A program made the position numbers and the translations under genes. Source: an uncultured Algimonas sp. (GTDB lineage Bacteria > Pseudomonadota > Alphaproteobacteria > Caulobacterales > Maricaulaceae). From it: a DNA stretch of 48,711 bases. Positions 12,409 to 43,065 of this stretch are shown one piece after another. The stretch lies in contig NZ_CANMJB010000011.1 in NCBI RefSeq assembly GCF_947498175.1, forward strand, positions 1-48,711. Reading direction: 5' to 3'. The notes under the pieces were generated by a model. That model was not told the origin of the DNA. It searched no databases and was given only the letters and a program-made list of their open reading frames with translations. Position 1 is the stretch's first letter; each line of letters opens with the position of its first letter.

Positions 12409-12929
12409 CTAAGACAGCACAGTCATTCCGTTGGCTTCGGCAGGGCCGGGAAGCCCGGTTCGGAATGAGGATGGTGCGGCCGAGATCCCGCGCGCGGCGA
12501 GCTGACCCAGACCGACCTTGTTGGACTTGGCGAGCGCGTCACGAATAACGGCAAACCCTTCCTCGGCCACCTTGCCGTCACCGGGCGTCACAAAATACGG
12601 CTTCTCGAAAAAACGCGGGTCGATTTCGCAATGATCGACGAACTGTACCGGGTCGATCGTTTCCTTGGATTCCAACTTGAGAACGTCGAGCTCGTCCTTT
12701 TCGAGCAGCATATATTTGCCGTCATCGACTTCGTAGCCCTTGACGATATCGTCGCTCTTGACCTCGCCAACCCCGGGCGCCGTTTTTGATACTTGATGCG
12801 TTTTCCGCTCTCGCGATGGATCTGGTTCAGCCTGATCGTCTCGGCATGGTCAACGGCCGTGTAAAGCTCGATGCCGATGGTCACGAGGCTGAGTCGCAAA
12901 TGACCTTTCCAATAAGCGCGTGCAGGCAT
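12409..12929 (-). pseudogene. ku: Ku DNA-end-binding protein, frameshifted and truncated
   Basis: Bacterial Ku binds double-strand ends for non-homologous end joining. The first part (MPARAYWKGHLRLSLVTIGIE... to KRIKYQK, about 48 residues) is a good Ku N-terminus. The frame then breaks at an A5 run (T5 on the plus strand, 12783-12787) where one base is missing. The next frame resumes with TAPGVGEVKSDDIVKGYEVD and runs through DPRFFEKPYFVTP to KVGLGQLAARG. After that the Ku sequence stops, about 120 residues short of normal length, and the remaining codons are read from across the att repeat. No ligD is present in the window. It is divergent from katE, a common neighbour of ku. Confidence 0.88.
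12471..12485. repeat. att direct repeat, distal copy
   Basis: ATGGTGCGGCCGAGA, identical to 43051-43065. Flanking bases on both sides differ from the right copy, so the identity is limited to these 15 bp. It represents a duplicated tRNA-Leu 3' end left at the far end of the island. Confidence 0.8.
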
Positions 12930-13180
12930 GAGGCGTTTCCAAAGTTCAATCTCTTGTCACGCCAAGGCCAACATAGAGCAAAACCTTACAGTGGATTTGA
13001 AGAAGTCCATTGTTCCTATTTTCGGGTCCAACCTTCCGATTCGATAAATGAAGCACTGGTGACCAAGATGCTCAGGCCACCGCGTCGGCGTGTGGAACAA
13101 GCCATATCTACGGACGTTGCAATATTACGCATTAAAACTTTCACGACATGACTCGGATTGTGATGCGCGGTAGCGATCAC

Positions 13181-15238
13181 ATGAAAAAGACGACTCAACT
13201 GCCTGATCTCGATGCGGGCGGCGCGCCGCACCAGACGACCGAGGATGGCTACGACACGCTCACGACGAAGAACGGCACGCCCGTCTCCGACAGTCAGAAC
13301 CATCTGAAGGCGGGGCCGCGCGGCCCAATGCTGATGGACGATTTCGCCTTCCGCGAGAAGATGTTCCATTTCGATCACGAGCGTATTCCTGAACGCGTTG
13401 TGCATGCGCGCGGCTACGGCATGAAAGGCTATTTCGAACTGACCGACAGCCTGTCGGACCTCACGGACGCCAAGATATTGAGCGAGATCGGCAAGAAGAC
13501 GGAAGCCTTCATGCGCATCTCAACCGTTGCGGGCAACAAGGGGTCGCCGGACCTGGCCCGCGACGTGCGCGGTTTCGCCGTCAAGATGTATACGGACGAA
13601 GGCAATTGGGACTTGGTCGGCAACAATATCCCGGTCTTCTTTATCCAGGACGCGATCAAGTTCCCCGACCTGATCCACGCCGCCAAGCCCGAACCGCATA
13701 GCGGCTTTCCGCAGGCGCAGACCGCCCACGACAATTTCTGGGACTTCATCTCTCTGTCGCCCGAAGCCATGCATATGGTCATGTGGATCATGTCGGACCG
13801 GGCCATCCCGCGCTCGCTGCGCTTCATGGAAGGGTTCGGGGTCCACACCTTCCGCCTGATCAAGGACGGCAAGTCGACCTTCGTGAAATTCCACTGGAAG
13901 CCGAAATACGGGATGCAGTCGGTGATGTGGAACGAGGCCGTCAAGATCAACGGCGCCGATCCCGACTACCATCGGCGTGACATCTTCAATTCGATCGACA
14001 AGGGCGATTTCCCCGAATGGGAACTCGGGGTCCAGATCTTCGATCAGGATTTCGCGGACAATTTCGAATTCGACGTGCTGGATGCGACGAAGCTCATCCC
14101 CGAGGAGGTCGTTCCGGTCCGGATCATCGGACGGCTCGTGCTGGACAAGAATGTCGACAATTTCTTCGCCGAAACCGAACAGGTCGCCTTCTGCACCTCC
14201 AACGTCCCGCCCGGCATCGGTTTCTCGAACGACCCGCTGCTGCAGGGCCGCAATTTCTCCTACCTGGACACGCAGCTCAAGCGGTTGGGCGGTCCAAACT
14301 TCCAGCACATTCCCGTCAACCGTCCGCGCTGTCCCATGCACAATTTCCAGCAGGACGGTCACATGGCGATGGAGAATCCGACGACCCGCGCCAATTACGA
14401 ACCCAATAGCTGGGGCCCCGACGAGGGTGGTCCGCGCGAGAATCCCAAGGCCGGCTATAAGTTCTACGAACAGCCGCTCGAAGGGCCCGCGCTCAAGATA
14501 CGCCCTGAGAGTTTCGCCGACCATTACAGCCAGGCGCGCCAATTCTACATCAGCCAGACCAAGGTCGAGCAGATGCACATGCAGGACGCGCTCTGCTTCG
14601 AGCTCAGCAAGGTCGGGAAGGTCGCCATCCGCGAACTGATGGTCGCCCATCTGCACAACATCGACGACGGTTTGGCCAAGGCGGTCGCCCAGGGACTGGG
14701 CATGAAACTGCCGAAGCCCGCCAAGACTGCGGCCGAGACGAAGATGGACATCGCGCCGTCCGACGCGCTCAGCATGCTGAAGAACCCGCCGAAAAGTTTC
14801 GCTAGCCGGACGCTCGGCATCCTGGTGGCGGACGAGTCCGACGCAGGCCGCGTCAAGGGCTTGCAGGCTGCGATGAAAAAGCTCGGCGCGAATGTCGCTG
14901 TCATCGCGCCAACCGTCGGCGGGGTCGATCTTGACGACGGGACGCATCTGCCCGCGGACGAGCAGGTCGGCGGCGGGCCTTCTGTCCTGTACGACGCGGT
15001 CGCCGTGATCGTGTCAAAGGCGGGCGGCAAGACGCTCGCCGCTATGCCCGCGGCTAAGGATTTCGTCTCCGACGCCCACGCCCACAAGAAGTTCGTGGCC
15101 CATGACGACGGGGCCATGTTGCTGTTCGAGGCGGCTGGTCTGGGCGAGATGATGACAACAGGCTATTTCGGGGTCGACGCCTTAGTCAACGGTTTCGCCG
15201 ACGCGCTGCCGGCGCTCAGATGCTGGGACCGGGGCTGA
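13181..15238 (+). CDS. katE: large-subunit (clade 2) catalase
   Basis: A heme catalase degrading hydrogen peroxide. It has 685 aa from ATG 13181; an ATG at 13163 is also possible, and neither has a clear Shine-Dalgarno sequence. Visible motifs are [18 protein letters not shown] (catalytic His in VHARG), the catalytic Asn in [12 protein letters not shown], and the proximal heme Tyr in RNFSYLDTQ. The extra C-terminal domain of about 150 residues, beginning at [14 protein letters not shown], is the flavodoxin/GATase-like fold found in HPII-type catalases. It is intact, at the left end of the island, divergent from the broken ku, and meets the desaturase gene tail to tail with only 6 bp between. 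Confidence 0.96.
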
Positions 15239-15244
15239 AACTGA

Positions 15245-16246
15245 TTAAGCGCATGCGCGGAAGCTGACCATCCGTTTGCGACGCTCACACCAGAGCGCGA
15301 GACTGACGCTGGAAAAGCTCTCGCGGAGCGTCAGACGCCCGATCGTCTTGAGTTCCGGATGCGCCTTCAGAATGCGCGGAAGGTGGTAGAAGGGAATGCG
15401 TGCGGACAGGTGATGCACGTGATGCACGCCGATATGACCGGTGACCCACATCGCCCACCCGGGCAGCGCGTAGTAGGAACTGCCGCGCAGGGCGGCTTCC
15501 TTGCGGTCCCATTCGCCCGTTCGCGACCAATGGGTGTCGTCGAACTGGTGCTGGACATAGAACATCCAGACGCCGATCGAGGCACCGACTAGGATGGTCG
15601 GAACTTGGATGATGAGGAAGACTTTCCACCCGACAGCCCAGATCATCACGCCGTAAACCAAGGCGATTCCAACGTTCGTCAGCAGCGCGCTCGCCCATTC
15701 GGACCGGCTCAATTTACCGGATCCGAGGGGAAGGCGGTTGTACAGGAAGAAAACGTAGGGCGGGCCGATGCCGAACATCACGACGGGGTGGCGATACAAA
15801 CGATACTTCAGACGCGTCCATCGGCTCGCCGTGCGGTATTCCTTGACCGTCATCGTGATGATGTCGTCGCCGATCCCGCGCCGATCCAGATTGCCCGAAC
15901 CGGCATGATGGAGCGCGTGTCCGCGTTTCCAGTGGTCATAGGGCGTGAGGGTGATCAGGCTGAGGAATCGGCCGACCCAGTCATTCGTCCGGCGACCGCT
16001 GAACATGGATTGGTGTCCGCAGTCATGCTGGATGATGAAAAGACGCACGACCAGCGCCCCCGCAGGCAGGAATCCAACGATCGCCCAATATTGCCCGGCC
16101 TGCAACAGGCCCCAGAGAGCAGCCCAAAGCGCCAGGAACGGCCCGAGCGTGATCAACAATTCCAATAAGGCGCGCCGATCATCGGCCGTGCGATAGGGGG
16201 CGAGGCGTTTGTACCAAGTTTGAGCAGGGATGTTCATGAAGGTCAT
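15245..16246 (-). CDS. membrane fatty acid desaturase
   Basis: A 333-aa integral membrane di-iron desaturase that introduces double bonds into acyl chains. The three histidine boxes are present: HDCGH (about residue 74), HALHH (about 110) and HHVHH (about 275), with QHQFDDTHW between the later ones. Four to six hydrophobic segments are visible (e.g. LLITLGPFLALWAALWGLL, VGIALVYGVMIWAVGW). It resembles delta-12/omega-6 type bacterial desaturases; regiospecificity cannot be decided. Start is ATG 16246 or ATG 16237 (MNIPAQTW). It is convergent with katE. Electron donor genes are not adjacent. Confidence 0.9.
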   Translation of the reverse strand: MTFMNIPAQTWYKRLAPYRTADDRRALLELLITLGPFLALWAALWGLLQAGQYWAIVGFLPAGALVVRLFIIQHDCGHQSMFSGRRTNDWVGRFLSLITLTPYDHWKRGHALHHAGSGNLDRRGIGDDIITMTVKEYRTASRWTRLKYRLYRHPVVMFGIGPPYVFFLYNRLPLGSGKLSRSEWASALLTNVGIALVYGVMIWAVGWKVFLIIQVPTILVGASIGVWMFYVQHQFDDTHWSRTGEWDRKEAALRGSSYYALPGWAMWVTGHIGVHHVHHLSARIPFYHLPRILKAHPELKTIGRLTLRESFSSVSLALWCERRKRMVSFRACA

Positions 16247-16452
16247 GCTTCAGGGTCTCGGCATAGCGCTAGATCGCAGATGGTCCGGAGTGGTGCGCGG
16301 CGTCAACCGTCCAATCCAGCTGCCAGACTCATACATGCCGAATAATATGACAAAGATTAAAGGATTTGGTCCATGGACTGCTACGACATTCTCTTCAACA
16401 TTGCGTGTGGGTAAAGGTAAGGCGTATATGCCTTTGACAAAGCCAACGCTAT
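16247..16452. other. AT-rich intergenic region
   Basis: No gene seen. It holds the desaturase promoter region and an imperfect palindrome AAGGCGTATATGCCTT at about 16419-16434. Confidence 0.5.
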
Positions 16453-16640
16453 TTAACGGTTAGCTTCCAACCTGTCTCGTGGCAGAGCAGCCACTACATT
16501 TGCCGTCGCAAATCCAGCACTTAGTCCACTCGTTGAGACCCATTGCGCTACTGCTTGTGCCCCCACAGCGCTTTCCATCAATTGTCTCAGCGCATTCGTC
16601 TTTAGGCCGCTGTCTTTCTGGGCAATAAGTGCTCCGGCTG
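16453..16640 (-). pseudogene. C-terminal fragment of an unrecognised protein
   Basis: A minus-strand frame without a credible start reads AGALIAQKDSGLKTNALRQ, then MESAVGAQAVAQWVSTSGL and SAGFATANVVAALPRDRLEA before TAA at 16453. The composition looks like a real helical protein tail, and it is cut off where the coupling-protein fragment begins on the other strand near 16629. This suggests a recombination scar. I cannot name the family. Confidence 0.35.
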
Positions 16641-17279
16641 TTCGTGGAACAGGTCCTCGCGGCCTAGCTGCAGAACGAACCCGGACCGGACGAACCGCAT
16701 AAGGTGCTCGTGCTTCTGGACGAGTTCGAGTCGCTCGGGACCATGCTGAGCGTCGTGGATAATCTTCCCTTCGTGCGATTCTTCAATCTCCGGATCGTCA
16801 ACAACATCCAGGGACTGACGCAGCTGGACCTCCGCCACGGCCAGGCGGGGCGCGAGAAGATCCTGCAATCGTCGGCGCATCAGATCTTCTTCGCGCTCAA
16901 CGACAGGATGACGACCGAATATGTGTCCTACCGGCTCGGCCGCAAGACGATCAAGCAGACCTCTCGCTCTGTCGGATCCATGGGCGTGACGCGCAACCAT
17001 TCTGAAATGGGTCGCGACCTCATGCTGGCCCAGGAAGTCGCGGTGCTGTCCACCGATGAGCAAATCACTCTCGTGGAGAGTTATCGACCGGACCGGGCGA
17101 AGAAAATCCGCTTTTATCAGGACCGCGCCATCAAGGGACAGGCTCGGAAGCCGACCCCTCAAATCCAGGCTCTCGTTCCAGTCCGACATAATAGCCCAGA
17201 GTTCAAGACACAGACCGTTCCCGACGATGTTCTGAACGAGATCTCCGACCTCGCCCGCGAACTGGAAGACCTACTCTAG
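16629..17279 (+). pseudogene. type IV secretion coupling protein (TraG/VirD4), C-terminal fragment
   Basis: VirD4/TraG proteins are inner-membrane ATPases that deliver DNA to conjugation machinery. Only the C-terminal part remains: LVLLDEFESLG is the Walker B region, NIQGLTQLDL carries the Gln-rich motor motif, and IFFALNDRMTTEYVS and EVAVLSTDEQITLVES are family segments. The Walker A half is missing. Reading the same frame upstream gives LRLFVEQVLAA, a TAG stop (16665-16667), then LQNEPGPDEPHK, so the frame is also interrupted. The longest uninterrupted frame starts at GTG 16704 (191 aa). It overlaps the zeta-toxin gene tail to tail by 4 bp. Confidence 0.82.
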
Positions 17280-18511
17280 CTAGAATGACATGAAGAATAG
17301 TTGCGAGCCTTTGTCTTCCCGACGCCTTTGGCGTTGTAGACTTGAGTTGTAGCTCTCACGATCGACCGCACAATGTCGGCCTTGCTCGCGTCGGGCCGAG
17401 TTTGCACGTCGATCGAGGTCAAGCCATGCACCTTGAGGGCATCGATCATCTTCGGCGCCAGCTTCAAGGATTTCAGAAGCGCGTCGGCCCGGGCTTTCGA
17501 CAATGTGTCCTGCACGCTCAAAGCGGCCTTGCCTTCGGCCTCGAACGCTTTTCGGGCAACCCCTATGCTGGCTGTCAGAACGTCCTTGGCCTCGGCCAAG
17601 GACATTTGGGTCGAGATGGCACCGGCGCGCTTGACCACGGCCTTGCGACTGTGGGGATAATCGATCTTCACGTCGCGCTCCAAGGGCGGAACCTTGTCCA
17701 TGAGAGACTTGAAGTGGGCGTAGAGTCGGCCGTCATCCGTCTGCTGCAATACATGCATGGCGGACTCGGCGATGATCGGCCCGGTGAAGGAGCGACGGCC
17801 GCGCGGGATCAAGACCTTCGCCTTCGGCGAAACCTGTTCGCGCGCAATCTGGCTCAGGTTTTCATAGGAGGCAGCCGCGTCGTTCAATCGTGCGGGCGTA
17901 AACGCCCACAAATCCTCCTTGTATAGATTTCGCGCCCATTTCGGAATAGTCTTGGAAACGCGGATGGCCTGACCATCGTGGAACCGGGCGATCATCCGGG
18001 GCGCGCGGCCATAGGTCGAGTTGTCATAGACAAAGGCGTCGTCGGCTTCACGCACCGCTTCCCGGATCAAGGGCTTGTTGCGATGATACCGGGCTCGGGC
18101 CTTGTCCTCAGGGACGTCGTGTCCGCCGTCCTTGACCCGTTGCTTGACGCGCGCGACCGACAGATCTTCGCTCCGGATCTCGACATGATAGAGGACGACC
18201 CGAAAGCCCCGCTCCTTTGCGTCGATGACCAGCTGGTTCTTGCTTTTATGCGAGAACACGGTCTCCGTGACGAAGCTCTTGCCGTCTCGCAGATGTTCAT
18301 ACTGGCGCTCACGCACAATTTGTGCGGCCTTATAAGCGCCCTGGACCGTCTGATCCTTAAGCTCGGCGCGCTGGAGAACGTCGGCATTGAGAAAGGGTGC
18401 ATTGGTCCGCGGTGCAATGCGCGTCTTGTAGAGGGTCGATTTTCCGGCACCGTTCGGTCCGGCGATCAAATAGAGCGTCGGTCGCTTCTCAAGGCTGTCG
18501 TCCTGGGCCAC
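17276..18511 (-). CDS. zeta-type toxin
   Basis: Zeta toxins phosphorylate UDP-N-acetyl sugars and so block cell-wall synthesis. This 411-aa protein has a Walker A GPNGAGKST at residues 18-26, FLNADVLQ (substrate-site Asp in the usual place), KSFVTETVFSH with the conserved T-E-T, and RVKDGGHDVPEDKARARYHR resembling the zeta arginine region. After about residue 200 comes a second region of about 200 residues, mostly helical, with no known catalytic motif. Long zeta proteins like this occur in conjugative elements. Start is GTG 18511 with GGGAG eight bases upstream. It follows the ParD-like gene by 21 bp in the same orientation. Confidence 0.88.
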   Translation of the reverse strand: MAQDDSLEKRPTLYLIAGPNGAGKSTLYKTRIAPRTNAPFLNADVLQRAELKDQTVQGAYKAAQIVRERQYEHLRDGKSFVTETVFSHKSKNQLVIDAKERGFRVVLYHVEIRSEDLSVARVKQRVKDGGHDVPEDKARARYHRNKPLIREAVREADDAFVYDNSTYGRAPRMIARFHDGQAIRVSKTIPKWARNLYKEDLWAFTPARLNDAAASYENLSQIAREQVSPKAKVLIPRGRRSFTGPIIAESAMHVLQQTDDGRLYAHFKSLMDKVPPLERDVKIDYPHSRKAVVKRAGAISTQMSLAEAKDVLTASIGVARKAFEAEGKAALSVQDTLSKARADALLKSLKLAPKMIDALKVHGLTSIDVQTRPDASKADIVRSIVRATTQVYNAKGVGKTKARNYSSCHSS

Positions 18512-18532
18512 CGAAACTGCTCCCGGTTTCCG

Positions 18533-18922
18533 CTATTCAGCCGGTGCGGGTGCGCTCGTATCGGGCCGTGTGGGCTCGTTATCGCCATAGACCAGGGCGC
18601 CGGCCTCATCCATCCCAACGCCGACGCCGCGCTTGCGCATGTCCGCGAAAAAGGCCTCTTCTTCCGAGGAAGGGATTTCCATCGCCTCCAGGAACTCCTC
18701 GTGATAGACGGCTTGTTCCCGACCCGACAGATCATCGACGGACAGCTCGGCGCGAAGCGCCCGCTTCACGCGGCTATAGTCGAAATCGGGAGATCGGAGG
18801 ATCAAGCGTCCGATCTGAGCCCAATGCTCGATCTGACCGGAAACGGAGCGGCTTTCGACCGCCGCGTCCAGGCGGGCGGCTTCGACAAGATCGGATGAGA
18901 CGCGGACGGCTTGCTGTGACAT
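18533..18922 (-). CDS. ParD-like antitoxin
   Basis: A 129-aa protein starting at ATG 18922. The N-terminal QAVRVSSDLVEAARLDAAVESRSVSGQIEHWAQIGRLI matches the ParD-like antitoxin family (ribbon-helix-helix style DNA-binding start). The C-terminal half is acidic and ends in Pro/Ala, suiting an unfolded toxin-neutralising tail. It precedes the zeta toxin gene, as expected for an autoregulated antitoxin. It is not the classical epsilon antitoxin. Confidence 0.82.
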   Translation of the reverse strand: MSQQAVRVSSDLVEAARLDAAVESRSVSGQIEHWAQIGRLILRSPDFDYSRVKRALRAELSVDDLSGREQAVYHEEFLEAMEIPSSEEEAFFADMRKRGVGVGMDEAGALVYGDNEPTRPDTSAPAPAE

Positions 18923-19147
18923 AAAAAGGATATAACATGTATGTTGCAAAATGCAACATTTACGTTGGACATGGATCCTGTTGCTTATGAAACATAAAGC
19001 TCGCGGATTGAGATCAGTTTTACAGCCTGACTACGCGATATCCTGCAACATAATAAGCCTGGGTTTTCTACAGGCGATCCAAAATTCTTAAAACTGTTGC
19101 AACAGGTTTAGTCTTCACACAACTGTATGTTGATCGCGACCAAATGA

Positions 19148-19591
19148 TCAGTCCGATGATCGGTTTTTGACCTTATTTTCATGGGATTCATCGCTAAGCG
19201 TACGTGCAAAGAGCAGGAGCTGACGCCGGACGTTTATGCTTTTTATACCGTTCAAAGCTTCGACAAAATCAAAACCGTCTCGAGTGTTGATGAAATCCTG
19301 GAGCATGTTGTCGTTTGGTTGAACCGATTGGCCTTCTCGCTGTGGTAACAGTCCTTCAAAAAACCATTGTAGCGGTACCTCTAAAGCCTCTGCGAATGAC
19401 CAAAGACGGGACGCGCCAATACGGTTCTTTCCCTTCTCGTACTTCTGAATTTGCTGGAATGTAACGCCTACGGCATCGCCAAGCGCAGATTGCGACATAC
19501 CGAGCTGCAAGCGCCTGAGTCTCAGTCTTGTGCCAACATGTAGATCAACCGCATTGGCATTACGGGGTTTGCTTTGATGAGGCTTCTTCAT
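19148..19591 (-). CDS. XRE-family (Cro/CI-type) regulator
   Basis: A 147-aa DNA-binding protein. The helix-turn-helix is at residues about 20-75: GTRLRLRRLQLGMSQSALGD followed by GVTFQQIQKYEKGKNRIGAS. The C-terminal half is a typical short alphaproteobacterial XRE tail (MLQDFINTRDGFDFVEALNGI), similar to regulators found in many alphaproteobacterial genomes. It is divergent from luxR and could control the quorum-sensing group or the island; no target is evident. Confidence 0.9.
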   Translation of the reverse strand: MKKPHQSKPRNANAVDLHVGTRLRLRRLQLGMSQSALGDAVGVTFQQIQKYEKGKNRIGASRLWSFAEALEVPLQWFFEGLLPQREGQSVQPNDNMLQDFINTRDGFDFVEALNGIKSINVRRQLLLFARTLSDESHENKVKNRSSD

Positions 19592-19763
19592 AAACGCACA
19601 ACTCTACCTTTAGTTATACATACCTTCGCTCGCCTGATACCCTCTATAAAGTTTCCATACAACGGCTTAGGATTATGACTTTGTTGTCAGATGGACGGCT
19701 GTTTGGCCAACCGGACTAGAACAAGTACAGCTCCGCCAACCCTGATAAATGATGTCCTTTGTT

Positions 19764-19845: not shown

Positions 19846-20583
19846 ATGACAAAATTCGAAAAGGATTTAGCGAGGCCGCTTTTCGACTTCATCCGATCAT
19901 CTCATAAAGCCGAGACACTTGATGACCTGAACATCCAGTTCTCGAGCGTTGTTAGTGACTACGGTTTTGATACCTTTCTATGCACCGATTTGCGAGGCAG
20001 CACGGGAAACGGACGTCCTGTAGAACTGTTCGGAAGGTGGAACCGGCGATGGGAGGCCCGGTATTTCAGCCGGCAATACTTCCGCTTCGATGCCTGCCTT
20101 GAATTTTTAAAACATTCGAATTCGGCGTTCTCATGGAGTGATGTGCTCGCAACTGGCACTGTTACGTCTATTGGACGTAGGATTCTCGACGAGGCGAGCG
20201 AGTACAAAGCTCGTGAGGGTGTACTCGTCCCTATAAGATCGCTCGATCGGCAACTCAGCGTCGTGAGTCTTATGGGTGACACGGTCGAATTGTCCGACGA
20301 CGGGTTGGCAGCAATCGAAGTCGCCTCAATCTATTTTTGCGAAGCCGGGCGACGACTTCAACACAGACAATCAGGCACAAAGACGCATGCTCTGACTAAA
20401 CGCCAGATCGAAATCATCAAATGGTTAGCGGAAGGCAAGCGTTACGGCGATATTGCAACTATTCTTAATATCAGTGTGAAAACGGTTCATCGCCATATGG
20501 ATGACGCTCGAACCCGCATGAACCTTGTCACGCGTGATCAGTTGGTCCTGGAAGCCTTCCGGAAAGGTCTCATCGAAGTGTAG
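19846..20583 (+). CDS. luxR: LuxR-family quorum-sensing regulator
   Basis: A 245-aa transcription factor with an N-terminal autoinducer-binding domain and a C-terminal GerE-type helix-turn-helix (residues about 178-240, LTKRQIEIIKWLAEGKRYGDI). AHL-contact residues of the LuxR/TraR family are kept: W69-x3-Y73, D82 and W97 correspond to TraR W57, Y61, D70 and W85. It therefore should respond to an acyl-homoserine lactone. It is 73 bp upstream of and parallel to luxI. The spacer has two small hairpins (TTGGGG/CCCCAA; CCCAG/CTGGG), the second overlapping the luxI Shine-Dalgarno region. Confidence 0.94.
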   Translation: MTKFEKDLARPLFDFIRSSHKAETLDDLNIQFSSVVSDYGFDTFLCTDLRGSTGNGRPVELFGRWNRRWEARYFSRQYFRFDACLEFLKHSNSAFSWSDVLATGTVTSIGRRILDEASEYKAREGVLVPIRSLDRQLSVVSLMGDTVELSDDGLAAIEVASIYFCEAGRRLQHRQSGTKTHALTKRQIEIIKWLAEGKRYGDIATILNISVKTVHRHMDDARTRMNLVTRDQLVLEAFRKGLIEV

Positions 20584-20656: not shown

Positions 20657-21457
20657 ATGAAGGTACATATTGTCAACACGACGAACATAGCGCTCTACGG
20701 TCCGCAGCTCGATCAGATGCATCGCCAGCGTAAGGCCATGTTCGTAGACAGGTTGGGCTGGACCGAGCTCGATCAGGGCGGGGACTACGAAGTTGATGAA
20801 TTCGATAACGAGTTTGCGCACTATCTACTTCTGATCGATGACGTCGGACAGGTACTCGCCTCCTGCCGCGTATCGCCGACAAATCAGGCGAATGTTTCCT
20901 GCGACAAGCTTGCGGAATTCTTCGATGGCGTTCCGCCACGTGAGGAAAAGGTTTGGGAGGTATCTCGCTGGATTCCAGCTCCGGGCGTCGATGGCCTGAA
21001 CGAAATTTGCAGCAGCATGATGATGCTCAGCCTGTTTGAGTTTGGCTTGTCACGCAAACTCGACGGGATGATTTCTTGCGTTGGCCGCATCGTGACGCGA
21101 GCCATAGCGAGAGCCGGTTTACCTCTAAGCTCAATCAGCCCGCCTATCCGATTTGCACAAGGTGTGGCTTTTGGGATTCAGTTCGAAACAAGCGTAGAGA
21201 ACATAACAAGATTACGCCGCAGCTTCCGGATTTTCAAACCCATCACGATCGAACTTTCCAAAGCCCTAGATAGTAATTTGGCGCTCGAGGGAATGCACAG
21301 CTCGATCATTGATAGCGTTCTGGCGATCTGCGATCTGGATATTCTTTCTGAGATACTCAGCGATGTTCACTCCCGACTCGTGTTGAACATGAGGCCCACA
21401 CTCGATGACATCCGAGATCATATGTCGGACGTGATGAAGGGAGGGCAGTTCCAATGA
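20657..21457 (+). CDS. luxI: acyl-homoserine-lactone synthase with C-terminal extension
   Basis: LuxI enzymes join S-adenosylmethionine and an acyl carrier to make an AHL signal. The family's invariant residues are present: R25, F29, W35, D47, D50, R71, and the E-x-x-R pair in VWEVSRW. The AHL domain ends near residue 200. About 60 further residues, helical and containing ALEGMHSSIIDSVLAICDLDIL and MRPTLDDIRDHMSDVM, have no counterpart in typical LuxI proteins of about 190-220 aa. GGGAGGAG-type ribosome binding site lies upstream of ATG 20657. The stop overlaps the next gene's start (ATGA). Confidence 0.94.
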   Translation: MKVHIVNTTNIALYGPQLDQMHRQRKAMFVDRLGWTELDQGGDYEVDEFDNEFAHYLLLIDDVGQVLASCRVSPTNQANVSCDKLAEFFDGVPPREEKVWEVSRWIPAPGVDGLNEICSSMMMLSLFEFGLSRKLDGMISCVGRIVTRAIARAGLPLSSISPPIRFAQGVAFGIQFETSVENITRLRRSFRIFKPITIELSKALDSNLALEGMHSSIIDSVLAICDLDILSEILSDVHSRLVLNMRPTLDDIRDHMSDVMKGGQFQ

Positions 21458-29165: not shown

Positions 29166-29175
29166 TCTGCCCTCC

Positions 29176-30867: not shown

Positions 30868-30901
30868 TGTATCCGTTGATCCAAATGCAGTGTTTTCAGG
30901 T

Positions 30902-30929
30902 TTTATATACGCGTTACCCAAATTGTCAA
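30902..30929 (-). promoter_or_regulatory. sigma70-type promoter of the catabolic operon
   Basis: Minus strand: TTGACA (30924-30929), 16-bp spacer, TATAAA (30902-30907), 35 bp before ATG 30867. It lies in the 93-bp gap shared with tetR, so the TetR protein is well placed to repress it. Confidence 0.75.
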
Positions 30930-34312: not shown

Positions 34313-34334
34313 ACAAAGATTGCCAGATACGAGC

Positions 34335-35069
34335 TCATATCTTCATTCCAGACGAAGCTTGATGTACCCGGCCTCGCGCAACTGACAGATAGAGCGACTC
34401 TAACTCGCGCGCCGACAGTTCCTTCGCAGCCCGTTCATCCTGCAGAATGCCGGAATGCATGATGCCGATCCGGTCTGCGATATCCAAGGCGCGGAAGAGG
34501 TCGTGCGTGGCCATCAAAACAGCCACACCCTGTCCGCTGACGCGCTTGAGGGACTCGCTGAACTCGTAGGAGGCGGCGGGATCCAGGCCGCTGGTTGGTT
34601 CATCAAGCAGGAGGGCTTTCGCCTGTTTGGCCAAGGCTATGGCGATCCCGACCTTCTGGCGCATGCCTTTGGAGTAGCCGACGACTTTCCGACCGAAGGC
34701 CTCTTCCTGCAGTCCGGCTTGCGTCAAAAATCTCTTTAGCACGTCATGGTCGTAGGACTGTCCGCCAAGCCGAGCGAAATAATCGAGATTTTCTAAACCG
34801 GAAAACCAGCCATACAGGTTGACCTGCTCAGGAATGTAAGCCAGCGCGCGTCGGGCCGCGACCGGGTTCTCCTGAACGTTTATACCCGCAACACTGGTGC
34901 GCCCACCGGCGAGATCGACAAAACCTAGAAACGCGTTGATCGTGGTCGTCTTGCCCGCGCCATTGGGTCCGAGCAGCGCGTAGATTTCGCCCTCTGCAAT
35001 ATCGAGGTCCAGACCGCCCAGTGCGGTATGAGACCCATATGTGACGGTCAGTGTCTCGGCTTTAAGCAT
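34335..35069 (-). CDS. ABC transporter ATP-binding protein
   Basis: A 244-aa ATPase: Walker A GPNGAGKTT (about residues 34-42), signature-like YSKGMRQKV, Walker B LLLDEPTSGLD, and switch His in MATHDLF. It matches NosF/CcmA-type ATPases that pair with ABC-2 permeases. It lies 15 bp downstream of the second permease gene. Transported substrate unknown. Confidence 0.95.
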   Translation of the reverse strand: MLKAETLTVTYGSHTALGGLDLDIAEGEIYALLGPNGAGKTTTINAFLGFVDLAGGRTSVAGINVQENPVAARRALAYIPEQVNLYGWFSGLENLDYFARLGGQSYDHDVLKRFLTQAGLQEEAFGRKVVGYSKGMRQKVGIAIALAKQAKALLLDEPTSGLDPAASYEFSESLKRVSGQGVAVLMATHDLFRALDIADRIGIMHSGILQDERAAKELSARELESLYLSVARGRVHQASSGMKI

Positions 35070-35084
35070 TGGTTTTATCCCTGA

Positions 35085-36515
35085 TCATGGCTCAACCCGT
35101 TTCAGCGACCACCAAGCCCACGCGAAGGCAACGGCGAAAGCCAGAGCCAGAGCGGCGAGCCGCTCGACCAGTCTTCGCATCCGGTCGATCTTGTCCTCCG
35201 CCGGCGCGATATAGATCGGCGCGGAGGCGTAATCCGCCGCCGTCAAGGGTCGCATCGACGCGAGCTTGTCGTCGAAATGGTCGCGCCACTGCCTCTGATA
35301 ATCGTCGACCGATCTCAGAAAGCTCTGGCGACGTTCCGGCGTCCCGCCCGATAGATCGTCGCCCAGCAGCTTCATGGCCAGCGACGGGCTGACCACGGAG
35401 GCTCTGCGCAGTGTTTCGGACTGTCGGACGCGGGCAGCTTCACGCTCTTGCGCCAGAGGCGCGAAAGCTGCGTCGAAGGCCAGGATGCGCGGGTAAAGTT
35501 CTCGGACCCAATATTCCTCATACTCATTGCCTTGTCGAACGGGCCGATTATCCGGCTGGGCATCGTAATAGGCCTGACTGACCGCGTCGCGCCGTCGGTT
35601 AAGGTCGTTCTGGATTTCGCGCATTTCCAAGATGCCCTGCAATCGGTCGGGTGGTGGAGCGGTCCGGTTAAGAATGATGCTGATCGCTACCGGGGCGAGC
35701 AAAGACGTTCCGACCCACACCGTCAACAGAACGAGACCCGCCGTCGCTGCATTCTTCGCGCGGGCATTTATACCGGCCGATAGGCAGATCCAGAACCCGA
35801 TGATCAGGCCAAGACCTAAAAGAAGAACGGCCAGTCCGGGCAAGGCCGTCCCCAAACGATCCGGCTCGTTATAGAGCGTGCCAAGCAGCAATATTGTGGC
35901 AACAATTCCAAAGACCGCCGCGAAGCGAACCAGAAGCCGCTGGACGATAATTGTCCTCAACCCGCCCGCTTGCGCGGCGAGAAGGGCGGAGCCGCGATGC
36001 TCCCGGTCTCTTGCCATGACATCGTAACTCAAAAGTAGAACGAAAAGCGGGACCAGCCAGCTTATGATGAAAACAGAGTCGAACGGTCCGTCCAGACGGT
36101 TTTCGGGGTTGTCGAGCGCGGGATCCGTATTCCCGTATCGGGTATTTATGCCGATCCTCTGCAGGTCGGGTGTGGGTCTTTGTTCGGCAGCGGAAAGGAA
36201 GCCGAGTTCCGAACGCACCGGAATTAGAACACGTGCGGCACCCCTAAATAGTACTGTACTGTGCGCGTTTCTGACGCTGCCGAGTTCCGCTTCCGTGATA
36301 AGGCCCGCTTCGAAGTCTGCGGCAGTTTTCTCATAGGTCGCATATCGTTCGATGTCGTCGGCGAGCGCTGCCGCAACAGCCCTATCCGATTGGACCACGC
36401 GGTGACTGCCGTTGTAGACGGCAAACGCGCTCAGCACGGTCAGCACGATCAAAAGCGGTAAAGTCGCAGGCGCTTTGAGAAAAAGCCGCCACTCCTGTTG
36501 TAATCGCCCGTTCAT
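35085..36515 (-). CDS. ABC-2 type permease, DUF3526 family (second)
   Basis: A 476-aa membrane protein starting at ATG 36515, whose ATGA overlaps the stop of the upstream permease gene. One N-terminal membrane helix (LPLLIVLTVLSAFAVYN) is followed by a periplasmic loop of about 90 residues. Then come helices such as FIISWLVPLFVLLLSYDVMA with the DREHRGSALLAAQAGG motif, a large periplasmic loop of about 180 residues, and a last helix near the C-terminus. This layout is typical of DUF3526 proteins. It probably forms a heterodimer with the preceding paralogue. The longer frame to 36686 overlaps that gene and is unlikely. Confidence 0.88.
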   Translation of the reverse strand: MNGRLQQEWRLFLKAPATLPLLIVLTVLSAFAVYNGSHRVVQSDRAVAAALADDIERYATYEKTAADFEAGLITEAELGSVRNAHSTVLFRGAARVLIPVRSELGFLSAAEQRPTPDLQRIGINTRYGNTDPALDNPENRLDGPFDSVFIISWLVPLFVLLLSYDVMARDREHRGSALLAAQAGGLRTIIVQRLLVRFAAVFGIVATILLLGTLYNEPDRLGTALPGLAVLLLGLGLIIGFWICLSAGINARAKNAATAGLVLLTVWVGTSLLAPVAISIILNRTAPPPDRLQGILEMREIQNDLNRRRDAVSQAYYDAQPDNRPVRQGNEYEEYWVRELYPRILAFDAAFAPLAQEREAARVRQSETLRRASVVSPSLAMKLLGDDLSGGTPERRQSFLRSVDDYQRQWRDHFDDKLASMRPLTAADYASAPIYIAPAEDKIDRMRRLVERLAALALAFAVAFAWAWWSLKRVEP

Positions 36516-37930
36516 GGTCGCAATCGCCGTGTTACAAAGGCCAGAGCGGCCCATGAGGCCGCGAGCCAGAGCAAGAGTACCATCAGGAACCCAGTCTGCT
36601 GTCTGATGGCCCAAAAAGCGCTCGGATTGTGATATTGGAAGGGCTCGACCTTTGCCCAGTCGGCGTTCTGACCATCCATTTCCCAACGTTCGCCTGTGAC
36701 CCGCTGCTGGAGCAGATCGTTCATCTGATAGCCAAACTCGCGTCGATAGCGTTCCGCCGCTGTCAGAAAATCCTGGTAATGCGCCCAGTCCATCGCGGCC
36801 ATGCCTTGCGAGACACTCCGCGCGGCAACGAAAGGCGAAATCGACGAAACACCCAGGCGAATGGCCTGTTGCCGGCCGTAGACCTCCTGCAAACGAGCAA
36901 ACTCCCGATCGTCGACTTCGGTAGACCAGGCGTCCAGATGCTTCATGCGGATACCGGAATATCCCGTTTCGAGTGCGTCCAGCGTTTCGACGCCGTATTC
37001 TTCAAGCGTGGTCACGCGAAGGGCTTCGAACTGCTGCATATAGCCGCCGCGTTTGTCGAACCCTGCGTCGAACACGTCTCCGACAGCGGCATTATACTCC
37101 GCCAGGCTCGGCGTCGGTGCAAAGTGCGACGACAGGGTCGAAGCCAGGCGCGGGGCCAGAATGAAACCGGAAATCCACAGACCCAGCGCCAGCAACAGCG
37201 CCGCTCTAGACGTGCGAACTAGGGCCGAGACTGTCAATCCCACGATGAGAGCGATCAGAATGAGCAGCCCGTTTGTGCTTAACATCAGAACCGCTCGCAC
37301 ACCGACGTCCGATCGCGTGTCTGCAGGGGCTATGAGGAGAAATCCAACCATAGCAATCACAGCGGCCGGGACGATCGGCACAGCCAGGATGGAGGCGAGG
37401 CCTGCAATCTTTCCGCCGATCCAGACGCCCGGACGAACGCCTTGGGACAAGGCCTGTCGCAACGTCCCTTTTTCACGTTCGCCGACGATGGCCAACGACC
37501 CGATCACCAAGGCCAATAGACTTCCCAGCATCTGGACAGCGGCCGCCCCGCTGACAACGCCGAGACCGGTATTGAGCGTCTGATCGTCTTCGGACGGAAT
37601 GTTGGTGAAGGCCGGACGCTCATGGGCTTCCAACCAAAGCGTCTGTCCCACGAACGGTCGCAGGCCGGGTTCGAACAATGCGAGGCTTAGTTCCGGTTTG
37701 ACGACATAGTTGCCAAAATGCGCCGCATGATGGGGGTGGCGTTCGCCTTGCGTCAGCCACTGCGCACGAGCTTCCGAGGTGAACGCGTGATGCTGACGCT
37801 GCGCCTCGGCATGTTGCACCCATCCCGACACGATGGCGGATACCAGCAGCGCAAAAAAGGCGAGGCTGGCGATCGTCAGGCGGCCGTCGCGAAATTGATG
37901 CTGGAATTCGTGTCGGGCGATTTCAAACAT
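36512..37930 (-). CDS. ABC-2 type permease, DUF3526 family (first)
   Basis: A 472-aa paralogue of the next gene: N-terminal helix LTIASLAFFALLVSAIVSGW, loop of about 90 residues, helices from AVQMLGSLLALVIGSLAIV with GEREKGTLRQALSQGVRPG. A large periplasmic loop (about residues 265-430) follows, and then the last helix TGFLMVLLLWLAASWAAL. It starts 8 bp after the upstream TonB receptor stop. Together with the ATPase it makes a complete exporter-like or NosDFY-like ABC unit. Confidence 0.88.
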   Translation of the reverse strand: MFEIARHEFQHQFRDGRLTIASLAFFALLVSAIVSGWVQHAEAQRQHHAFTSEARAQWLTQGERHPHHAAHFGNYVVKPELSLALFEPGLRPFVGQTLWLEAHERPAFTNIPSEDDQTLNTGLGVVSGAAAVQMLGSLLALVIGSLAIVGEREKGTLRQALSQGVRPGVWIGGKIAGLASILAVPIVPAAVIAMVGFLLIAPADTRSDVGVRAVLMLSTNGLLILIALIVGLTVSALVRTSRAALLLALGLWISGFILAPRLASTLSSHFAPTPSLAEYNAAVGDVFDAGFDKRGGYMQQFEALRVTTLEEYGVETLDALETGYSGIRMKHLDAWSTEVDDREFARLQEVYGRQQAIRLGVSSISPFVAARSVSQGMAAMDWAHYQDFLTAAERYRREFGYQMNDLLQQRVTGERWEMDGQNADWAKVEPFQYHNPSAFWAIRQQTGFLMVLLLWLAASWAALAFVTRRLRP

Positions 37931-37938
37931 GGCGCACG

Positions 37939-40035
37939 CTAAAAGTCATAGGCCAAGCGGAGCGAGACGCTGCGCGGTTCCTGCGGCAGGATGGATGTGC
38001 TAGTCAGATCGTAGATCTTCTTGTCCGTCAGGTTTCGGATATTTAACTGTACCGAGACCTTGTCGAACGGGTAGCTCAGCATCGCATCAAACCGCGTGTA
38101 GGCGGGCAGGGTCCAGTCCGCATTTGGCAGAGCCGCCTGTCGGTCGCCGACGTAGAACGCACCGGCCCCAACGGACAGGTTTTCTGCGAACCCGGCCTGC
38201 ACCGTATACTTCCCCCAAAGACTGGCCGTAAAATCCGCAGCCCCCGGCAGTCTGGAGCCAACCGCGAACCGGTTGTCTTCCGTGACCTCCGCATCGATGT
38301 AGGAGGTAGCGAAAGTCAGGTCGAGACCTTCGAACGGGGAGCCGCTGACATCGAATTCGACACCTTGGCTGCGCTGCTCGCCTGTCTGGACGCGGAAGAG
38401 AGGATTGTCGGGATCGAGTGTCGAAACGTTCTGCTTGGTAATGTAATAGACGGCGAATGTCGCAAACAGACGGCCATCCAGCCAGGATCGCTTCACGCCG
38501 ACTTCCAATTGCTGTCCCTGTTCGGGCACCAGCTGTTCGCCCTCAGCCGTGACGCCACTTGTGATGGGCAGGAAGGATTCCCCGTAACTTACATACCAGC
38601 TTGTGGCCTCATCCGGCTGATAGACAACACCGCCTTGCGGACTGAATGCATTGTCGTTGCCCTCGCGAGTCAACGTGTTCGTTAATATGTTGAAGTTCGT
38701 GTTGTCGACCGAGTCGTACCTGCCGCCCAGCAGCAGTTTTACCTTATCCCCGATGGAGATCAGGTTCTGCGCGTAGAGCCCGTAGGCTTCGCTGGAAATT
38801 CTGTCCGCAAACAGGGGAAACCCGGCTCCGGCTTGCGCGCCGTAAACGGGATTGAAGAGGTCGATCGGCGCTAAAGGCCGAAACTCGAACGCATATGATT
38901 GTTCGACGTCATAATATTCAAGCCCGACAACAAGCTGGTGTTCTAGAACTCCGGTCGTGAACTCGCCCGCAATGTCGTTTTGCAGCACGAAGGTCTTGGA
39001 TTCTTCTTCGGTGTCAAAAGCGCTCCGGTCCGCCGTCAGCCTGTCCGCCGACAAGCGAAAAGCCGAACGAAGCTTATAATCGCCGTCGGTTTTTGCGTAG
39101 CCGGTCGTCTGTCTGAAACGCCAGTCATCGTTGAATCTGTGCTCTAGAACGGACGCCACATAGGTCGAGTCAACATCGTTGATGCCATCCGGTTCGCCTA
39201 GAAAACGACTGACGGGCAGCTGGAATATGATGGGGTCACGGGGAAGGCCCAGATCCCACGTATATTCGCTCTTTTTGTGTTCGAGCTCGACAATCCAGTC
39301 CGTGTCCTGACCCAGCCGGAAGGAGGCGACTGGCGCAATAAAAAAACTGTTACTTTCGACTTGGTCCCGGAAGCTGCCCGCATCTTCGATGGCGGCGTTC
39401 AACCGGTACCCAACATTATCGTCAAGCGGCCCGCCGAGATCGAGTTCGCCGCGATAGAAATCGTCACTACCTACGGTCAGCACACCTCTGGCGAGTCGCG
39501 CTTCAGTCGGTTTCTTCGTGATCGTATTCGTAATTCCACCTGGCGAAACAGCTCCGTACAGAACCGATCCTGGTCCTTTCAAAACCTCAAAGCGCTCCAC
39601 ATTGGCTGCGTCGCGCAGTGTATAGAAGCCGAAATCCCGAACGCCGTTCCGCAGCGTCAGGAAGCTGGCGTCGAACCCGCGAAGATAGGCCCCGAAGTTC
39701 TGTACGCCTCCATAGCCGAGCTTGCGTTGCGCACCCGGCACCGTGTCCAGCGCTGCGCCAAGATAGTTGATCCCCCGGTCCTCAATAAGTTGGGCAGGAA
39801 CAACCGAAACCGTCAGGGGGATATCTTTCAGCAACGCCTGCACCCGGGTTCCTGTCAGCGCATCGACGGCCTTGTAATTGTCGATCCGGCGTCCCGTCAC
39901 AAGAATTGTATCTTCGAAGACTTTTTCCGGCGTGACATCGACGGGATCGTCTGCGGTCTGGGCGGACGCGGATAGCGGAAAAGCCAGGAGGCTCGCCCCT
40001 GCAAGCAGCAGGGCGGATTGGGTCATTGGACGCAC
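37939..40035 (-). CDS. TonB-dependent siderophore-type receptor
   Basis: A 698-aa outer-membrane receptor. Signal peptide ends at SASAQT. TonB-box-like DTILVTGRR, then plug motifs DIPLTVSVVPAQLIEDRG, YLRGFDASFLTLRNGVRD and RFEVLKGPGSVLYGAVSPGG are those of TonB-dependent siderophore receptors (FhuA/FpvA group). The barrel ends in SVSLRLAYDF. GTG 40035 has AGGGGA five bases upstream and is preferred to ATG 40026. It is the first large gene of the operon, after the DUF2946-like gene. Siderophore, copper-chelate or peptide uptake are possible. Confidence 0.92.
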   Translation of the reverse strand: MRPMTQSALLLAGASLLAFPLSASAQTADDPVDVTPEKVFEDTILVTGRRIDNYKAVDALTGTRVQALLKDIPLTVSVVPAQLIEDRGINYLGAALDTVPGAQRKLGYGGVQNFGAYLRGFDASFLTLRNGVRDFGFYTLRDAANVERFEVLKGPGSVLYGAVSPGGITNTITKKPTEARLARGVLTVGSDDFYRGELDLGGPLDDNVGYRLNAAIEDAGSFRDQVESNSFFIAPVASFRLGQDTDWIVELEHKKSEYTWDLGLPRDPIIFQLPVSRFLGEPDGINDVDSTYVASVLEHRFNDDWRFRQTTGYAKTDGDYKLRSAFRLSADRLTADRSAFDTEEESKTFVLQNDIAGEFTTGVLEHQLVVGLEYYDVEQSYAFEFRPLAPIDLFNPVYGAQAGAGFPLFADRISSEAYGLYAQNLISIGDKVKLLLGGRYDSVDNTNFNILTNTLTREGNDNAFSPQGGVVYQPDEATSWYVSYGESFLPITSGVTAEGEQLVPEQGQQLEVGVKRSWLDGRLFATFAVYYITKQNVSTLDPDNPLFRVQTGEQRSQGVEFDVSGSPFEGLDLTFATSYIDAEVTEDNRFAVGSRLPGAADFTASLWGKYTVQAGFAENLSVGAGAFYVGDRQAALPNADWTLPAYTRFDAMLSYPFDKVSVQLNIRNLTDKKIYDLTSTSILPQEPRSVSLRLAYDF

Positions 40036-40146
40036 ACGGGTCCCCTTATGTTCAATAGCAAAATATCACGCAGCCTTCGTGCGATGCACGAGGGTGGATC
40101 GGTCATCGGACGCGGCGTTAAAGCCGTTCCGGGTCGTCAGTGATGG

Positions 40147-40485
40147 CTAATGAGGTGGGGCGCGGGCTGCGTTCGGCCGAACGTCCGGTAATGGTGGCGG
40201 ACTGTACCAAGTTTCGATGAGACCGAATTCCGGCGAACTTTGAGTTGCGGTCGCGTACCGCGCCTCGTCCATGAAAATCGGAGTGTCGGTTGGCTCCAGC
40301 TGTACTGGTAACACGTCTTGTTCGTCGGGCGCTGCAACAACGCAGACTTTGCAGGTCTCCGCAGGTTCATGATCCGCATCTTCATGGACGTGACTTCCGG
40401 CAAGAGCTTGGCCGTAAAACAAGATTGAAACGAAGAGTACGCAAAGCGCACGCATCATAAATCCCGATTTACCGAACGCTCCCAT
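40147..40485 (-). CDS. small secreted His/Cys protein, DUF2946-like
   Basis: A 112-aa protein from ATG 40485 (GTG 40491 and ATG 40458 are alternatives; none has a strong ribosome site). A signal segment RALCVLFVSILFYGQALAGS is followed by HVHEDADHEPAETCKVCVVA, a His-rich plus CxxC cluster that could bind a metal. The C-terminus is Pro-rich. The H-x-H...C-x-x-C layout matches my memory of DUF2946 proteins beside copper-related TonB receptors. It is 111 bp upstream of the receptor gene and probably in the same operon. Confidence 0.65.
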   Translation of the reverse strand: MGAFGKSGFMMRALCVLFVSILFYGQALAGSHVHEDADHEPAETCKVCVVAAPDEQDVLPVQLEPTDTPIFMDEARYATATQSSPEFGLIETWYSPPPLPDVRPNAARAPPH

Positions 40486-40510: not shown

Positions 40511-40532
40511 CAATCTCAAGAGAGAAAGATTG
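40511..40532. promoter_or_regulatory. inverted repeat upstream of the DUF2946/TonB/ABC operon
   Basis: CAATCT and AGATTG arms separated by 10 bp, about 25 bp before the first gene's start. Possible operator for a metal or siderophore regulator; not a recognisable Fur box. Confidence 0.3.
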
Positions 40533-41528: not shown

Positions 41529-41544
41529 TGCAGCGATCTCGGAA

Positions 41545-42919
41545 TTACTCCGGAAACGGATATGATGTCAGAAGGCCATCTGGTATCGGATGCACGATCT
41601 TAAGCAGCTCGTCTCGTCGGTAAACCAATGAGCCACCGTCTCCATACTCTGGTCGAGGGTTACGATGGCCCATGAGCGTGCAACGAAGCCCGTAGTCTAG
41701 CCCGGCCTCGAGCATTCGTTTTTCGAAGCTGTGCCGAAAGCTGTAAATGCGGTGCTGGTCCGACGGGATAAGCTCGCGCGACTTGAACGCTTTTAAGAGC
41801 GATTGGGACAGGAGGTATCCGCGATCCCTGTAATGCGGGAAGCCGTCCGAAGACCGCTTCATCGCTTCGAACGCGATGCCGACCAAGGGAATCTCGCGCA
41901 CGGATGCGGCCGACTTGAGCTGCCGAGCCTTGGTTGATCGAATCCGAATGTAGGGAACATCGTCGTCCAGCCGTATGTTTTCGGAAAGTAGGTTCGCAAT
42001 CTCGTTTGGGCGACACCAGGTCTCGATTAACACGTAACAAAGCAGAGCTGCCTCTCGGTTCAGGCCTTCCAACACACTCGGTTGGAGAATGCGCGTTCGA
42101 ACGAAATCATCGGTGAAGGGTTTGATCGTCTTCAACTTCGGGGCGGCAAAGCGAAGATTGCGAAACGGGTTCTCGCGGCTCTCTTGTCCGATGTGTTCGA
42201 AGTATCGGCGGTAGAGCTTTCTGAGATTGCCAAGGTCGCGATTGCCGCTGTTGCCGCTGACAGGCTTTTGCCTATCGTTCGGATGGATGCGGTCAGCCCA
42301 ATGGCGATAGACTTTGCGCGCATGGTCGCGGTCGATGTCCGTCATGGACAGGTCGCCATTCAGCTTGATGAAGTTGGCGACGGCGCGTCGTTTGACTTTT
42401 GTGTAGGTCTTCAACTGCTCGGGCGATTTTCCGCCCTGCTCATCCAAAGCGATTTCGCCCAGATAGAGGTTCAAGGCCTGCGTGATCGTGACATCGTTCG
42501 GCGTCACAAGACCGAGGAGCGCATCCGCGTCCTGAAGCTTCTCTCTCGTGGGCTTCGCAGTGACAGACCCCAACGTGTCCAAACGCCGGAGAATTTGCTC
42601 GAGCGTGGCTTGCTCGGCAAGCTGGGAAGCTGGCGTGTAGGTAAAACCCAATGCTAGAGCGCTGTTGAGTGTCCCACAAAACAGCATGGGAGCTAGCACT
42701 TCCTGAACAAGCGTGAGTGATCTCGTTCCAACGTTGGTCGTCCGCGGCGGCGCAAATGTCGCGTCTTTGGCGGGCAACGCTTCGGCTGTCTGTGTCGAGA
42801 GAGCGGTAGATGATGTCTGGACCGTCAGCTTGCCGCACCGACTTAGGCACGCGTCTCACATAATGCCAGATTTCACCGCGTTGACGCAGATACTGATTGG
42901 GACGCTGGATCGATTTCAC
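41545..42919 (-). pseudogene. tyrosine recombinase (phage-type integrase), frameshifted
   Basis: Site-specific recombinase expected to have inserted the island. The N-terminus (KSIQRPNQYLRQRGEIWHYV, the DUF6538-type start) is read from ATG 42919. The frame must shift near 42657-42664 to continue with ALALGFTYTPASQLAEQATL. A lost GC dinucleotide in a GCGC context would restore WDTQQRALALGFTY. The catalytic domain is otherwise complete: R in ETWCRPNEIANLL, H-x-x-R in YSFRHSFEKRM, LMGHRNPRPEYGDG and a candidate nucleophile Tyr just after (VYRR). As written the second frame alone (41545-42777) lacks the DNA-binding N-terminus. Confidence 0.85.
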
Positions 42920-43050
42920 AAACCTACTCCTGTGAGCCTTTTGTAAGGCAAGAAGTTAGGCAAAGCTCTCAAGAAGCCGGGACGCACCGGGAAAACCAAG
43001 GGCTTTCCTTAAGCAAATCAGAGGCTTAACGCATTGAAAACGCTCTGAAA

Positions 43051-43065
43051 ATGGTGCGGCCGAGA
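43051..43065. repeat. att direct repeat, tRNA copy
   Basis: ATGGTGCGGCCGAGA, covering one base beyond the tRNA plus CCA and part of the acceptor stem. Identical to 12471-12485. Confidence 0.8.

Follow-up and report, generated by a model that had tools for sequence, protein, structure and literature searches.

A tRNA-Leu(GAG) genomic island in an uncultured Algimonas sp., probably stranded, with quorum-sensing and putative amine-catabolic cargo

The dusA-associated islands, as described in parts of PMC4482086, combine one integrase family with one conserved target, flanking direct repeats, and varied cargo. Among quorum-sensing loci of the Sphingomonadaceae, PMC3704786 reports that phyH adjoins luxI in four of the five pairs from Novosphingobium, and PMC4288048 gives a luxR-luxR-luxI-phyH-X-virB topology, with virB genes downstream in the double-luxR type. 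Here we describe a 48,711-nucleotide stretch of DNA from an uncultured Algimonas sp. (contig NZ_CANMJB010000011.1; hereafter termed the window), which is one entire contig of the 26 that make up a 2.85 Mb genome, and in which positions 12471 to 43065 are supported as a genomic island at tRNA-Leu(GAG). Islands of this type are well known, and the points of interest are the decay of this one and the combination of its cargo. The additions made here are a docking site shared across the family, an element that is probably stranded, and a known type of quorum-sensing unit paired with a rare, predicted amine-catabolic operon.

Attachment core, target tRNA, and flanks

The island is bounded by a 15 bp direct repeat, ATGGTGCGGCCGAGA, which is exact at 12471-12485 (the distal core copy) and at 43051-43065 (the near copy, within the 3′ end of a tRNA), in the same orientation. 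The original prediction, made from the letters of the window, had named this perfect repeat, and it is borne out: the genome of 2,847,968 bases has exactly two copies of the 15-mer rather than many elsewhere, and a reversed control pattern has zero matches. Since the base composition of the window leads to an expectation of only ∼0.011 chance copies genome-wide, a chance repeat was rejected. ARAGORN places an intact tRNA-Leu(GAG) at 43052-43138 on the minus strand, so that 14 of the 15 core bases are the tRNA 3′ end; the earlier equation of the repeat with that end holds for these 14 bases, and the fifteenth lies outside the tRNA. A TAAGCC arm-like motif is retained at +24, on the island side of the near core, and a near-end motif of this type stands at +22 to +24 in 13 of 38 tRNA copies from relatives (a set that includes L201 and one copy truncated by a contig end).

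The same site is used repeatedly by related elements. The 14-bp core is present in 88 of 137 family genomes, and 11 of the 137 (own included) hold at least two copies on one contig in one orientation. Ten of these 11 multi-copy genomes include the tRNA copy, and in the other, G102, neither copy is at the tRNA. Core spacings from the tRNA copy include 9.2 kb (G014), 9.9 kb (G018), 33.4 kb (G015), 37.5 kb (G152), and 57.3 kb (G010), along with the 30.6 kb of the window. Additionally, 10 of 80 genomes (own included) have a homologue of the integrase, whether intact or degraded, no more than ∼550 bp from the 3′ end of tRNA-Leu(GAG). These core-bounded inserts and integrases mark the tRNA as a recurrent target, and related elements throughout the family thus dock at tRNA-Leu(GAG). 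The neighborhood of this site is also shared: of the 34 tRNA-Leu(GAG) loci fetched from relatives, 31 contain the right-flank gene of lipoate-ligase type (44695-45609), and all of these except the G007 locus match the window in having it 5′ of the tRNA (30 of 31).

Two relatives are informative with respect to the flanks. In G015, a different insert (33.4 kb) lies between the same flanks and at the same tRNA, and its far core lies ∼120 bp away from where the orthologue of the window TonB gene (7999-10677) ends; this orthologue in turn adjoins that of 5110-7929. In G007, the orthologues of 5110-7929 and 7999-10677 are followed directly by tRNA-Leu(GAG), beyond which are lipoprotein, lipoate-ligase, DUF805, and nadA genes, and both flanks are therefore present with the island absent. 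Across 231 relative loci, genes of both flanks occur in three only (all G007), and a left-flank gene is found together with an island cargo gene in none (TonB, ATP-binding cassette (ABC), and integrase genes were excluded from this co-occurrence test). A right-flank gene accompanies a cargo homologue at a single locus (L112, from G018), where the homologue is a helix-turn-helix (HTH) regulator ∼9 kb away, inside another island. Synteny conserved across an island boundary is thus not seen in the 231 loci, and the island proposed in the original prediction is supported both by the inserts that the same core bounds at the same tRNA in relatives and by the flanks of G015 and G007. The guanine-plus-cytosine (GC) content is 0.65, 0.63, and 0.64 in the flank segments versus 0.53-0.60 in the five island segments.

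Between the TonB gene and the distal core, the window has a further stretch, 10763-12368, which encodes a YbiX-like Fe2+-dependent dioxygenase and a predicted lipoprotein. These genes are missing at that place in G007 and G015, and the G015 homologues are located at ∼1.557 Mb. The tRNA-Leu(GAG) itself is inverted between otherwise syntenic flanks in G007 (C31:25594-25680; L103/L117) and in G012 (C284; L132, a contig that begins inside the tRNA): these two genomes have the 5′ end toward the TonB gene, the window and G015 the 3′ end.

Integrase, far attachment end, and loss of mobility

The integrase that was predicted to adjoin the tRNA is present at 41545-42919, with its coding sequence split over two frames, a feature that the first reading did not report. 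The open reading frame (ORF) at 41545-42777 matches tyrosine recombinases (PHROG integrase, E 2.7e-26; Pfam PF00589 slightly below the cut-off), and its catalytic part occupies 41545-42663 on the minus strand. Residues R256, K288, R348, H371, and Y378 (numbered from the TTG ORF), which we take to be the catalytic residues, are invariant in 16 of 16 aligned integrases. The alignment draws on 15 of 19 relative loci and omits four: L063, and also L067, L068, and L075, which contain stop codons and indicate that broken integrases are not rare in relatives. The N-terminal part (42660-42919, minus strand) is in the other frame, where the overlapping ORF 42440-42919 contains a conserved domain, PF20172 (DUF6538; E 1.1e-10), with tblastn identity of at most 72% to the integrase N-termini of relatives. 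The frame changes near 42.65 kb, leaving the N-terminal domain and the catalytic part in different frames, and the frame is continuous at the equivalent position in 14 of 14 relatives read (of the 19 loci; L059, in which the integrase runs off the contig, was excluded from this reading). An intact integrase reading frame, as expected of an excisable island, is consequently not found in this assembly, where a sequencing error is possible. An integrase 67-68% identical to that of the window is located at a contig end in G005 (C70; L131), near a homologue of the 939-aa left-flank gene and on that gene's other side.

The far end of the island is unusual as well. It is formed by a ku remnant (12486-12929, minus strand), which consists of the N-terminal part only, is spread over two frames, and ends at the core: Pfam Ku matches are at 12412-12711 and 12588-12929, and the Ku frames of the four relatives read extend more than 100 residues beyond the point at the core where homology with the window ends. 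We compared this end with 27 second core copies of relatives, one of which (L201) is a partial tRNA copy; 11 further core copies in multi-copy genomes are outside this set. Under a strict pattern, 12 of 14 hand-picked ends have an arm-like sequence resembling TAAGTCATTGTA whose start is 42 or 43 nt from the core; 13 of the 27 have it at -42/-43 under a relaxed pattern, which has a background of 0.15% of random positions in such a slot; the count is descriptive only, because the pattern was derived from the same ends as were counted. The remaining 14 comprise seven with another motif and seven with neither. At the far end of the window neither motif was found, in the -42/-43 slot or of the second class, and the arm-type site that may serve excision in relatives is accordingly missing there. 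No motif of the near-end type was found outside the far core, and nothing there thus points to another such island further left. The second class of far end has a GAGGAAAC-like motif at -21/-22 from the core in L173, L175, L177, and L180 (from G148, G160, G164, and G153, respectively), and these loci have runs of two or three core copies, resembling tandem insertions at the same tRNA.

We searched the interior of the island for further ends and found no second core and no convincing arm site. An isolated arm-like match at 19658-19669 (minus strand; nhmmer E 6.3), between the HTH_3 gene and luxR, is probably due to chance, and an internal boundary near 19.66 kb is unsupported, given this one weak match with no core adjacent.

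Taken together, the repeat, the tRNA, the inserts of relatives, the frame split, and the missing arm-like motif make it likely, in our assessment, that the island integrated at the tRNA-Leu(GAG) 3′ end, subsequently decayed at its integrase and far end, and is now stranded. A tyrosine-recombinase island would have entered the 3′ end of the tRNA and left the 15-bp core at each end; later, near 42.65 kb, the integrase gene would have split into two frames, and the far end would have lost its arm-like region, with a truncated ku fused to the core in its place. With the integrase split and the far end damaged, the island is most likely stranded: lacking a working integrase or arm, it would not excise and would be inherited as chromosome, while the zeta-ParD pair may add to its stability. 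Both the loss of mobility and the role of the arm-like motif are what we infer from these features. The account also has points against it. The assembly being a draft, both frame changes (in the integrase and in ku) may have arisen from sequencing errors, and more than half of the relatives' second copies (14/27) are without the arm-like motif, which was noticed on the very sequences that were counted. As to the composition check proposed originally, GC is lower in five of five island segments, but tetranucleotides are clearly different in only two: correlation with the right flank is 0.69 at 18.5-24.5 kb and 0.74 at 36.5-43.05 kb, versus 0.81-0.84 in the other three, which are not separated from the flanks (the left-flank segments have 0.88 and 0.82). 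Finally, G007 has both flanks island-free, but the exact empty junction of 12470 to 43066, also anticipated in the original prediction, was not found in any fetched relative locus; G007 is without 10763-12368 and has an inverted tRNA.

If the frame change in the integrase came from a sequencing error or were a programmed frameshift, and if excision tolerated an odd far end, the island could still be mobile. The five candidate catalytic residues are kept and the N-terminal part of the integrase is well conserved, from which the break would be recent or not real; yet the 14 relatives read all have one continuous frame (the loci left out of the 19 include three with stop codons), the far end has no arm-like motif, and the broken ku is a separate sign of damage, such that continued mobility appears improbable. 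The far end bears on a further alternative, in which the left repeat arose by chance, or is a tRNA relic with no connection to the island, whose real left-hand boundary would then be elsewhere. The window far end is unlike those of relatives, and neither G007 nor G015 has the genes of 10763-12368 between the shared flanks, as this alternative would have it, but a copy expected only 0.011 times by chance nevertheless has the right place, length, and orientation, and no near-end arm of another island lies outside it; we consider a displaced boundary very improbable.

A composite origin is compatible with stranding, and we regard it as a possibility, though less likely than not: the left third (ku, catalase, desaturase, and zeta-ParD) may derive from another element or from a plasmid-like source, having been fused to the island that carried the integrase so as to replace its original far end. 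The KfrB/zeta and ParD-like genes are of a kind that we presume to be linked with plasmids, a ku fragment takes the place of a typical far end, and GC varies along the island. Moreover, among the 20 of 548 plasmid matches listed, the catalase DNA has relatives of 71-74% on sphingomonad plasmids, and the plasmids concerned are mainly alphaproteobacterial. These listed matches span the catalase alone, however, and no plasmid record covers 80% of 12486-19600; the gene table for one inspected plasmid catalase, which is incomplete, lists no Ku gene nearby. Nor does the interior of the island offer a second core or a convincing arm that could mark a seam, the match at 19658-19669 being weak and coreless. 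The left 19 kb was also considered as a single block existing elsewhere, and this was rejected: 119 of 137 family genomes match it somewhere, and the long matches among those listed are to catalase, desaturase, or ku DNA singly.

Cargo genes

The accessory genes that were expected between the repeats are confirmed by Pfam, which identifies predicted quorum-sensing, catabolic, uptake, catalase, and zeta-ParD genes. In most of them the frame is open and the family match good, as would fit retention for their predicted functions. They include an operon-like run on the minus strand, comprised of a guanidine-modifying enzyme of the arginine deiminase (ADI)/dimethylargininase type (29992-30921; PF02274), a nitrilase-type carbon-nitrogen hydrolase (29176-29955; PF00795), a flavin amine oxidase (ORF 27789-29327; PF01593), whose true start is probably near 29.15 kb, a membrane protein without a Pfam family (26600-27763), a probable transporter with 12 hydrophobic segments, an aldehyde dehydrogenase (25210-26610; PF00171), and TonB-dependent receptor 1 (22638-24980; PF00593 and PF07715). 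A TetR-family regulator (30961-31602, plus strand; PF00440) is divergent from the operon. The guanidine enzyme matches NCBIfam dimethylargininase models below the cut-off and DDAH structures in the PDB at E 3e-6 and weaker; the carbon-nitrogen hydrolase matches NCBIfam models below the cut-off, including that of N-carbamoylputrescine amidase; and the best solved relatives of the amine oxidase are monoamine and putrescine oxidases. Among the NCBIfam matches listed (the best 25 for two of the enzymes), none of the amine-operon enzymes passes an equivalog cut-off. The run from the guanidine enzyme to the aldehyde dehydrogenase is a probable guanidino/amine catabolic operon, and the order of its enzymes suggests a route resembling that from agmatine to gamma-aminobutyric acid (GABA), with a first step of the ADI/dimethylargininase type.

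This operon appears to be rare. Matches to the guanidine enzyme occur in 42 of 398 genomes of the order (own included), the 41 others at 23-39% identity, and a pattern scan of genome contigs found no close relatives. For the amine oxidase, 128 plasmid records were retrieved, all below 60% identity. Conserved synteny of the operon was examined and rejected, as seven amine-oxidase loci (the six closest, at 42-55% identity, and G133) are without homologues of the guanidine enzyme, nitrilase, and aldehyde dehydrogenase; a TetR homologue is within the fetched stretch in five of these seven.

The predicted quorum-sensing unit consists of a LuxR-type receptor-regulator (19846-20583; Pfam Autoind_bind and GerE), a LuxI-type acyl-homoserine lactone (AHL) synthase (20657-21457; PF00765), and, downstream of luxI, a PhyH-family dioxygenase (21454-22338; PF05721), all on the plus strand and in tandem, a gene content that corresponds to such a unit. 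An HTH_3 regulator (19148-19591, minus strand; PF01381) adjoins luxR. In LuxI, Arg25, Phe29, and Trp35 (read from the sequence) match the conserved LuxI triad given in a portion of PMC3704786. LuxI has matches in 102 of 398 genomes of the order, own included (best full-length others at 35-36%), and also at two named loci, of Glycocaulis profundi and a Bosea sp. An HTH_3 homologue is divergent beside luxR-luxI in G081 and G083; hth, luxR, and luxI homologues co-occur also in a Bosea sp. (L233), and luxR, luxI, and phyH homologues co-occur in G271 and G289 (L216 and L217).

Could these two systems be connected? It is conceivable, although we rate it as unlikely, that the island delivered a self-sufficient, density-regulated scavenging system (an AHL circuit together with an operon for guanidino compound uptake and degradation), which the host then locked in place through loss of the integrase and arm. 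Putative LuxR control of the amine operon is part of this proposal.

The remaining cargo includes an uptake module at 32165-40035 (minus strand), to which Pfam assigns TonB receptor 2, an ABC ATPase, two DUF3526 permeases, and a siderophore-type TonB receptor 3; the last passes the NCBIfam TonB-siderophore cut-off. A small predicted protein is encoded upstream of this receptor (40137-40451), and no convincing family was found for it. The left third of the island encodes a catalase of the long clade with a C-terminal domain (13148-15238, plus strand; PF00199, PF06628, and PF18011), followed on the minus strand by a fatty acid desaturase (15245-16246; PF00487), a zeta-type toxin with a KfrB domain (17276-18511; PF06414 and PF18790), and a ParD-like antitoxin (18533-18949; PF11903, E 2.4e-19); a protein without an assigned family lies between the desaturase and the toxin. 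Defense genes were considered and rejected, as the PADLOC matches on ten proteins were taken to be generic ATPase or HTH similarity. Among the island ORFs selected for Pfam, there are no relaxase or type IV secretion families and no phage structural genes, and PHROGs on four island ORFs found integrase and repressor families.

Comparison with known systems

The island is a well-bounded example of a probable passage from mobile to fixed, in which the target tRNA and the cargo persist but the recombinase and one of the two attachment ends degenerate. The recurrent tRNA-Leu(GAG) site, with its 14-bp core and positioned arm-like motif, should help to delimit islands across the family, and the amine operon is a candidate for a new catabolic pathway. 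In the conversion of agmatine via putrescine to GABA, guanidine hydrolysis is followed by carbamoyl-amide hydrolysis, amine oxidation, and aldehyde oxidation. The order of chemistry in the window operon would be alike, whereas its first enzyme belongs to PF02274 (ADI/dimethylargininase) and not to the agmatine deiminase family, presumably PF04371.

The quorum-sensing genes have the same three-gene order as the luxR-luxI-phyH units of Sphingomonadaceae in the sections of PMC3704786 and PMC4288048 considered here, but the window unit belongs to a tRNA island and has an HTH_3 gene and an amine operon as neighbors. Where the topology in PMC4288048 has virB genes downstream, the window instead has a convergent TonB receptor gene. 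With the dusA-associated islands, as far as the relevant parts of PMC4482086 describe them, the island has in common an integrase family, a conserved target, direct repeats, and varied cargo; it differs in that its target is tRNA-Leu(GAG) rather than dusA. The closest resemblance is to tRNA-associated islands with tyrosine recombinases, which share with it a core repeat equal to the tRNA 3′ end, accessory cargo, an integrase beside the tRNA that reads away from it, and variable content at the same site in relatives. The window island departs from these in its integrase, which is in two frames, and in its far end, which is without the arm-like motif of its relatives.

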